Shown: piece after piece, positions 24,774 to 27,640 of the stretch
How the letters are laid out: the number at the start of each line of letters is the position of its first letter
Numbering within the stretch: position 1 is the first letter of the stretch
DNA from: Thiotrichaceae bacterium
Lineage (GTDB): Bacteria; Pseudomonadota; Gammaproteobacteria; Eutrophobiales; Eutrophobiaceae
Length of the DNA: 64,000 nucleotides
Direction: 5' to 3'
Assembly (NCBI GenBank): GCA_012960105.1
Contig: DUBV01000039.1
Location: 27,991 to 91,990 of the forward strand
Notes under the pieces: model-generated
Told to the model about the DNA's origin: nothing
The model's database searches: none
Seen by the model: only the letters and a program-made list of their open reading frames with translations
Program-made: the position numbers and the translations under genes

Positions 24774-26921
24774 TTAAGACCGCGTAATCTGGGAGACACT
24801 TTTAAGTGTTCTAACTTTTCGCATTACGTTAGCTAAGTGAACGCGACTTTGTACTTCAATAATAAATCTTAACGATGTGTATCTATCATCTCGATCTTTC
24901 ATTTCTACATTGATGATATTCGCGCCGGCATCGGCAATCGTGGTTGAGACGATGGCAAGCACTCCACGTTGATTGCTCGTATTCATACGAATTTTTACTG
25001 AGAATTCACGTTCAATATCTGCTTCCCAGTCTACATGTATCCATTTCTCTTGATGGTTTTGGTATCCGGTAATATTTTTACAGCTTTGTCGATGTACAAC
25101 AATACCTCGACCTGAAGTAATAAAACCATGAATCGGATCACCAGGTATTGGATAACAGCACTTTGGAAAACTAACGACCATACCTTCAGTCCCTTTAATA
25201 GATAGCGGGGTAGTTTCATTAATAGGAATGGTCTTATTTTCTTGTTTGGTTAATTTCTCAAACGCGACTAATTGTCTTGCAATCAACGGAGCGAATTTAT
25301 TACCGAGTCCTATTTCCTGGAATAATTCATCTTCACTTCCAATTTTATTTTCAGAAAATAAATATTGCATATCTGTTTCACTCATATCTTGATAAGTGTA
25401 TGCGAAAGGTTCGAGTTCACGATTCAATAATCGTTTTCCTAAAGCTATAGCTTCACTTTTTTGCAGGTTCTTCAGGAAGTATCTAATTTGTGTGCGTGCT
25501 TTTGCGGTAACGACAAAATTTAACCATGCTGGATCAGGTCGGCCACTGGTGGCCGTAATAATCTCGACCGTTTGACCACTTGCCAACTGCGTACCGAGAG
25601 GAAATAGTTTTCTGTTAATTCGGGTTCCAACACAACTATTTCCTATATCAGTATGAATGGCATAGGCGAAATCAACTGCCGTAGCGCCGTTCGGCAACTC
25701 CATTATTTTTCCTTTGGGAGTAAAGATGTAAATATCATCTGGAAACAAATCAATTTTTACATTCTCAAAAAACTCTTCTGGGTTACCTGCAGTTTGATTC
25801 ATTTCAACAATGTTGCGTAGCCATTCTCTGGCGCGACGATGTGCGCCACTACGATTGTTACTGCGGCGAATAACATTTTTTGATTTTCCTTCTGCCTTAT
25901 AAAGCCAATGCGCGGCAATGCCGGCTTCAGCAACATCATCTATTTCCTTGGTGCGAATTTGAATTTCTATAGGAACACCATAAGGACCAAACAAAACAGT
26001 GTGTAGAGATTGGTAACCATTGGCTTTGGGGATGGCAATATAGTCTTTAAATTTTCCTGGCACGGGTTTATACAAATTATGTACTGTACCTATGGTGCGA
26101 TAACAAGTGTCGACATTATCGACCATGATACGAAAAGCATATACATCGTAAACTTCAGAGAATGACAAATGTTGCTCACGCATTTTCATATAAATGCCGT
26201 AAAGATGTTTCTCTCTTCCACGAATTTGTCCGGGAATTTTTTCCTGGCGCATACGACGTTTTAAGGCCGTGCGAATTTTTGTAATGACTTCTTTTCGATG
26301 ACCGCGAGCCTTATTTATTTGCTCATTCAAAATTCGGTAACGTAAAGGATATAGGATCGCAAAACCCAGTTCTTCTAATTCCAGACGTATAGTATTAACA
26401 CCAAGTCGTAGCGCGATAGGGGCATAAACTTCGAGTGTCTCGCGAGCAATGCGCCGACGTTTTTCAGGCTTGAGCGCTTCAAGTGTGCGCATGTTATGCA
26501 GGCGGTCAGCTAACTTGACGAGAATGACTCGAATATCATTACTCATGGCCATTAGCATTTTGCGGAAATTATGCGCTTGCGCTTCAGCAAAACTTTCAAA
26601 TTCAACTTTATCCAGTTTACTAACACCATCAACTAGTTCGGCTACACCTTTACCAAATTTTCGACTTATTTGAGTTTTAGCTGTTGGTGTATCTTCAATA
26701 ACGTCATGTAGTATGGCGGCTATTAATGTTTGATGATCCATGTGCATCTCGCCAAGAATGTAGGCTACTTCGAGAGGGTGATGAATATAGGGCTCACCAC
26801 TTTTACGTTTTTGTCCTTCATGCGCTTTGGCACTGAAATGATAGGCGCGTTGCACTTTCTCAACCTGATCTGCTTGCAGGTAAGTGCCGATAAGTTTACT
26901 TAGGTCGTTAATCGTTAACAC
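24774..26921 (-). CDS. spoT: Bifunctional (p)ppGpp synthetase/hydrolase SpoT
   Basis: [23 protein letters not shown] and ACT domains; rpoZ neighbourhood. Confidence 0.95.
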
Positions 26922-26972
26922 AGAGTCAATTCAGTTATAGTCTAATTGTTAGTTGTTACTTAATTGTATGAT

Positions 26973-27178
26973 ATACCCAAGTTACTTCAAAATGCAGATT
27001 CAGAGTTCATGCAAGAAGTCAGAGTAAGGCACAACGTGCAGGAAATGGCATTCCATTTTCAAACGTTGTAACGCAGCACTGGCTTCTTGCATGAACTCCC
27101 ATCGGGCAGGTTACAAATTTCATGTATTTGGACAATTGAAACCCAGCTGAATCCTGTATTTTGAGGTAACTTGGGTAT
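26973..27178. mobile_element. MITE-like nested inverted-repeat element between rpoZ and spoT
   Basis: Ends ATACCCAAGTTACTTCAAAATGCAG...CTGTATTTTGAGGTAACTTGGGTAT are inverted; internal GAGTTCATGCAAGAAG...CTTCTTGCATGAACTC; no ORF. Confidence 0.8.
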
Positions 27179-27281
27179 TTAACAGCACAAAACATAAAGA
27201 CGCATGCTGCGCCCTTATGTTTTATAGAATGGTTTAAATTAAGCCAGAAGAGGGCTTAATGACCTTGTTTAATTTGCTGGC

Positions 27282-27554
27282 TTACTCTGCAGGGGTAGCA
27301 GGAGTAGGTATAGCAAAATCAGCTTCTGTGAATTCTTCTTCCTCATCAAACTGATTTATTTTATCGATGTTTTCGTTATTCACTAGATTTTCTGCAATTT
27401 CACGTAATGCAATTACAGTAGGCTTATCCTGATTAGCAGGAACTAAAGGCTCTGCACCCATTGCAATCTGACGAGCACGTTTACTTGCCAACATAACCAG
27501 ATCATAGCGGTTATCAACATTTTCCAAACAATCTTCAACGGTTAATCTGGCCAT
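27282..27554 (-). CDS. rpoZ: DNA-directed RNA polymerase omega subunit
   Basis: [30 protein letters not shown]; start set at internal Met. Confidence 0.95.
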
Positions 27555-27640
27555 GATGTTCCTCATTCCTAAATTTTTAGAGTAATATTCGCCGGTTAAA
27601 AAATGACCGGTTTTCAAAGTGGAGCGCTATTCTACTGAAT

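Follow-up and report, generated by a model that had tools for sequence, protein, structure and literature searches.

A decayed MITE-like insertion between rpoZ and spoT points to a folded core common to elements with many different ends

The rpoZ-spoT locus and its inverted-repeat element

The window, that is the whole 64,000-nucleotide stretch of DNA that was analysed, carries spoT and an open reading frame containing rpoZ on the minus strand, with a short non-coding element lying between them. The features of this locus, in window coordinates, are as follows.

24774-26921, minus strand: spoT, RelA/SpoT-type ppGpp enzyme; proteins 79-91% identical in nine congeners with near-full matches
26972-26973, no strand: TA target-site copy on the spoT side, intact, by comparison with empty sites (GTTGTATCATACA)
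26974-27177, no strand: MITE-like element, 204 bp, identified by its inverted repeats, by nine congeners in which the site is empty, and by relatives that share its ends
26974-26997, plus strand: left terminal inverted repeat
27003-27098, plus strand: hairpin 1, the intact core hairpin (match to model R1 at 27013-27087, 73.1 bits, with this copy in the training set)
27025-27030, plus strand: internal loop, 5' side, TAAGGC (family CAAGGC)
27070-27076, plus strand: internal loop, 3' side, AACGCAG
27098-27106, plus strand: linker between hairpins, CCCATCGGG (family CCCnnnGGG)
27107-27147, plus strand: hairpin 2 remnant, from alignment A1
27154-27177, minus strand: right terminal inverted repeat
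27178-27179, no strand: target-site copy on the rpoZ side, decayed to TT, by comparison with empty sites
27189-27223, minus strand: host stem-loop downstream of rpoZ, outside the element and kept in congeners
27282-27617, minus strand: open reading frame containing rpoZ, from its MARLTVEDC motif and from synteny in congeners

The preliminary description, which was of about 206 bp of nested inverted repeats with imperfect terminal repeats of some 25 bp and an internal repeat of at least 16 bp, holds in substance. Inverted-repeat analysis finds terminal arms at 26973-26997 and 27154-27178 (25 nt, 92%) and an internal pair at 27003-27022 and 27079-27098 (20 nt, 95%), and the extent is refined to 204 bp (26974-27177). 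The ends had been read as CCCAAG...CTTGGG flanked by TA, which is right as regards the TA target, but the element proper is TACCC...GGGTA and one of the two TA copies has decayed to TT. No listed open reading frame of 60 aa or more lies inside the element, and its terminal repeat has no second occurrence in the window, where 0.01 chance matches would be expected. The predicted RNA fold of the element is -106.1 kcal/mol, against a shuffle mean of -53.0 (sd 4.7, z = -11.3).

Insertion at a TA target

In nine congeners the rpoZ-spoT spacer has an empty site, GTTG-TA-TCATACA, without an insert. Read on the spoT strand, the host has GCTGTTAAA-[element]-TATCATACA, where the nine congeners have GCTGTTG-TATCATACA or a variant of it, uninserted. 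This comparison shows the element to be a genuine insertion at a TA target, one duplicate of which has decayed. The tenth congener, G004, has on its contig 60 a different TATACCC element of 158 bp with a single hairpin, about 30 bp from the site of the window element. These are two independent insertions into one short spacer. The fact that there are nine empty sites and a different element in G004 means that the spacer is not fixed and, together with the multi-copy relatives described below, excludes a sequence that is single-copy everywhere and conserved as spacer.

The rpoZ-spoT junction had been called normally tight, which is not borne out: the spacer is about 117-127 bp in most congeners and contains a conserved stem-loop 3' of rpoZ, beyond which the element lies. 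This stem-loop (27189-27223, minus strand) is possibly a terminator or attenuator between the two genes. Compensating changes are seen in it among the congeners (GGCGCAGCATGCGCC, GTCGCAGCAAGCGAC).

The element is upstream of spoT, with about 52 bp between its end and the start of the gene. A promoter scan came out at chance level, and no claim is therefore made that the terminal repeat creates a hybrid promoter for spoT. A spoT transcript that starts upstream of the element would be predicted to carry a long hairpin, with a possible effect on spoT. That two species have different elements about 30 bp apart shows that insertions of this kind can be accommodated in the spoT leader.

Relatives with TATACCC ends

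A DNA search found relatives of the element in 6 of 53 genomes of the family, the host included, in two genera (matches in G001, G004, G020, G032, and G074). Scans for the ends found the same ends in Photobacterium, Colwellia, and Methylophaga, and the Photobacterium and Colwellia copies, when used as queries, led to further copies in Vibrio and Pseudoalteromonas replicons. An additional 262 bp copy is present in another bacterial family. In six Photobacterium and Colwellia genomes the ends occur 12-86 times per genome, while the reversed pattern does not occur at all. There are 54 candidates bounded by the terminal repeats, including a few nested pairings of ends; 32 of the 54 measure 262-263 bp, and 40 are flanked by TA at each end. 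The family is thus multi-copy in G020, G032, and G074, as well as in Photobacterium and Colwellia. The distribution is otherwise patchy: of 274 genomes in the class, 3 have the exact ends when one mismatch is allowed. A plasmid search with the window element as query gave no match, and neither did a phage search with a relative as query or a scan of viral contigs for the ends.

In the host genome the exact ends are represented by one full copy, which is that in the window, by a 44 bp solo end on contig 30, and by two lone end-like matches. Since TATACCC elements are rare and diverged there, current mobility in the host is unlikely. The suggestion that this is a MITE-like element is supported by the nine empty sites, by the multi-copy relatives with matching ends, and by the TA found on both sides of 40 of the 54 candidates. 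A count of copies in the genome and its relatives had been proposed as a check: the relatives elsewhere are multi-copy, but the host has only one full copy with these exact ends, and no parent transposase turned up among the fetched loci or in the PF13358 search.

Two-hairpin structure and covariation

Intact relatives, mostly 262-263 bp, consist of a terminal-repeat stem, a first hairpin, a CCCnnnGGG linker, and a second, inverted hairpin. In the aligned columns the terminal stem occupies 1-32, hairpin 1 33-129, and the linker the positions around 130-136, with hairpin 2 from 137. The stems of each hairpin covary and enclose an internal loop, CAAGGC/AACGCnG, which is asymmetric. Alignments of the 262 bp class were folded for the sister genus, for Photobacterium, and for Colwellia, and gave the same helix layout in all three lineages, although their consensus sequences are just 54-62% identical.

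In alignment A1, of 18 elements, 97.7% of cells pair. Compensating changes are seen at 29 pairs, against 11 in shuffles and at most 8 when the partners are slid, and 80 cells are double-changed, where shuffles give 20 and slid partners no more than 16; the shuffle control can be inflated by relatedness between the elements, whereas the slide control keeps relatedness.

Against the 262 bp relatives in the same alignment, the window copy is missing about 58 bp of hairpin 2, so that the second inverted hairpin, which in the relatives is about 105 bp away, is absent from it. The window copy has thus decayed, and most of its hairpin 2 is gone. Its hairpin 1 carries the invariant internal loop of the core group, and scores 73-74 bits with R1, a covariance model of one hairpin that was trained solely on TATACCC-ended elements, this copy among them.

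The same core inside elements with other ends

In the host genome R1 finds 11 further hairpins at E below 0.001. Ten or so of its host hairpins belong to a second repeat family, mostly 162 bp in length, with the ends AGGAACCTCTGATTAAGTC, while two weaker matches are single-hairpin TATACCC elements. The second host family numbers about a dozen copies, none of them in the window, and has the same CAAGGC/AACGC hairpin. Copies in the host genome (G000) include the following.

C86:51226-51387: second host repeat family
C87:11427-11588: second host repeat family
C22:65220-65380: second host repeat family
C7:39618-39779: second host repeat family
C14:113706-113867: second host repeat family
C5:147405-147566: second host repeat family
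C83:1997-2158: second host repeat family (others not listed here)

Of 58 relatives searched with R1, 13 have such hairpins (E between 1e-16 and 1e-4), up to 32 in one genome, many of them as converging pairs 104-110 bp apart. The elements that were inspected (in G051, G057, G050, G036, and G020) are about 260-272 bp, and most of them have the CCCnnnGGG linker, located at 126-131. The two-hairpin elements of these relatives have at least seven different terminal repeats (CTAGTGGGCCAAGTGG, CTAGTGTAGTGCGACG, CTAGTGTCCTGTC, CTAGTACTCTTTC, CTAGTACTCCGTC, GTGTACTGCTTCACC, AGAGCCTATCCGTGAATAAATC, and others), and overall the same core has been found inside elements with about ten kinds of ends other than TATACCC. 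The nested repeats noted in the preliminary description are real, but that reading missed that the interior is a conserved hairpin module common to elements with quite different ends.

In 39 hairpins from outside the training set, the ten loop columns of CAAGGC, AAC, and the last G are each identical in 37-39, and AACGCnG is identical in 34-39 at each of its fixed columns, an invariance that is partly circular, as the model rewards the loop columns and alignment A6 was fitted to the model. Independent support comes from features that the model did not contain, namely the arrangement of the hairpins in pairs, the linker, and the terminal repeats around them. The stem covariation score for all 48 hairpins is 0.909, against 0.227 when shuffled and at most 0.16 when slid. 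No Rfam family was matched, and the literature that was searched yielded no description of the core.

The core goes across bacterial families while the ends vary, and it is probably the core itself that is under selection. Stem covariation can also arise without selection, through template-switch correction of imperfect palindromes, but such correction would be expected to erase the mismatched loop, which is instead kept.

Relationship to ERIC

It is possible, at rather less than an even chance, that the element is a member in the broad sense of the enterobacterial ERIC family, ERIC being a one-hairpin relative. The ends of ERIC match at 17-21 of 26 positions, and beyond the first seven positions 10-14 of 19 still match (p from <0.0001 to 0.011). 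ERIC has an exact GCAAGGCG...CAACGCAGC, equalled in 1 of 3000 shuffles and lacking from YPAL and RU-3, and the loop geometry is likewise the same in its minimum-energy fold; ERIC also inserts at TA (PMC2759123). Set against this, the covariance models R1 and R2 score ERIC at chance, and the direct blastn match is confined to the ends and to short words. ERIC is also without the basal variable stem and the second hairpin, and its apex is longer.

The search for a parent transposase

An ordinary MITE would be the product of internal deletion of a single IS630-type insertion sequence with TATACCC ends, its palindromes being neutral leftovers. IS630-type elements use a TA target, and the TA target and terminal repeats here are as this origin would have them. 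Degraded PF13358 genes are also present in Photobacterium and Colwellia, in five genomes in which the ends occur. No PF13358 (IS630-type/DDE_3) gene is present in the host or in the five related family genomes tested, however, none of the IS630-like fragments that were fetched has a matching pair of these ends, and where TATACCC ends lie far apart in the fetched loci they do not enclose a transposase. Neutral leftovers would also not be expected to keep their structure across lineages and across different ends, as this interior has done. Such a derivation is unlikely. The IS630/Tc1-type reading given in the preliminary description is thus upheld as to its TA target, but not as to a parent, none having been found in these searches.

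Where long pairs of terminal repeats (0.8-2.1 kb) flank ordinary genes, no transposase lies between them, and they are pairs of separate elements. In Colwellia, the TATACCC end near IS630 fragments belongs to a neighbouring element. In the Azotobacter chroococcum plasmid pAcX50f (L246:3942-4211), a two-hairpin core element with the ends CTAGGGTCTGTTGACG directly adjoins an IS630-type transposase gene, but the ends of that gene's own element (CTAGTGT...) differ from CTAGGGTCTGTTGACG, making it a neighbour and no proven parent. This transposase gene, which is bounded by the CTAGTGT ends, is missing from the plasmid gene table that was used.

That the sequence is no mobile element but a conserved RNA leader regulating spoT would fit the location upstream of spoT, the very stable fold, and the undisturbed coding sequence. 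This is highly improbable, however, given that nine congeners lack the sequence, that G004 has a different element instead, that relatives are at many other loci in other genomes, and that there is no Rfam match.

Proposed explanation

The explanation that is favoured, with good confidence, is that this is a non-autonomous MITE-like element that inserted at a TA in the rpoZ-spoT spacer after the host species split from its nearest relatives, that its copies were moved in trans, and that its hairpins and loop have been selected. The sequence comparisons show the insertion at TA, the multiplication in relatives, and the conserved hairpins. Mobilization would have been by a transposase that reads the TATACCC ends and cuts at TA, and which is now absent or unrecognised here. 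The loop hairpins, CAAGGC/AACGCnG, would have a second function that does not depend on the ends. Since this core recurs in elements whose ends are unrelated, the hairpins would be a selected feature and not chance palindromes. They are likely to be recognised, in extruded DNA or in RNA, by a protein that these elements have in common. The hairpins of an intact element being inverted, a transcript or replication fork coming from either side would meet the same orientation first, which fits recognition of extruded DNA and of RNA alike.

More tentatively, and with nearly an even chance of being correct, these elements may form a large class in the Gammaproteobacteria with a fixed two-hairpin core (CAAGGC/AACGCnG) and exchangeable ends of at least ten kinds, many starting TA or CTAG. 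ERIC would then be a reduced one-hairpin member, and the loop a putative binding site for a common factor other than the transposase by which the ends are read.

MITEs are usually seen as shrunken copies of one insertion sequence and are defined by their ends, whereas here a folded core persists and it is the ends that vary. Taken by itself the locus is a decayed MITE-like insertion, but it has led to a structured core that elements with many different ends have in common. Whatever binds the CAAGGC/AACGC loop would provide a testable handle on the role of ERIC-type palindromes and on what moves them.

Comparison with known repeat families

The repeated unit of REPINs is two inverted imperfect hairpins, and REP and REPIN sequences are moved by REP-associated tyrosine transposases. 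The two inverted imperfect hairpins are a likeness to the elements described here, which differ in having true terminal inverted repeats, TA targets, and a core that occurs with many unrelated ends. The CIR elements of Caulobacter and Brucella similarly have a pair of long hairpin arms with a linker between them (PMC2229807), but are set apart, by description, in having no terminal inverted repeats and in carrying a methylation motif. RUP of the pneumococcus and the Correia/NEMIS elements of Neisseria are, like these elements, small and TA-targeted, with terminal inverted repeats and stable RNA folds (PMC2229807). The ends of RUP match those of IS630-Spn1 (PMC2229807), whereas no matching insertion sequence was found here, the comparison with RUP and Correia/NEMIS being by description.

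ERIC (enterobacterial repetitive intergenic consensus, RU-1), which is 127 bp, intergenic, and inserted at TA (PMC2759123), differs in having one hairpin with a longer apex, without the basal variable stem, linker, or second hairpin, and in being unrecognised by R1 and R2. It shares with these elements the TATACCC ends of about 26 bp, the TA target, a long hairpin, an intergenic position, the absence of a transposase, and CAAGGC/AACGCAG.
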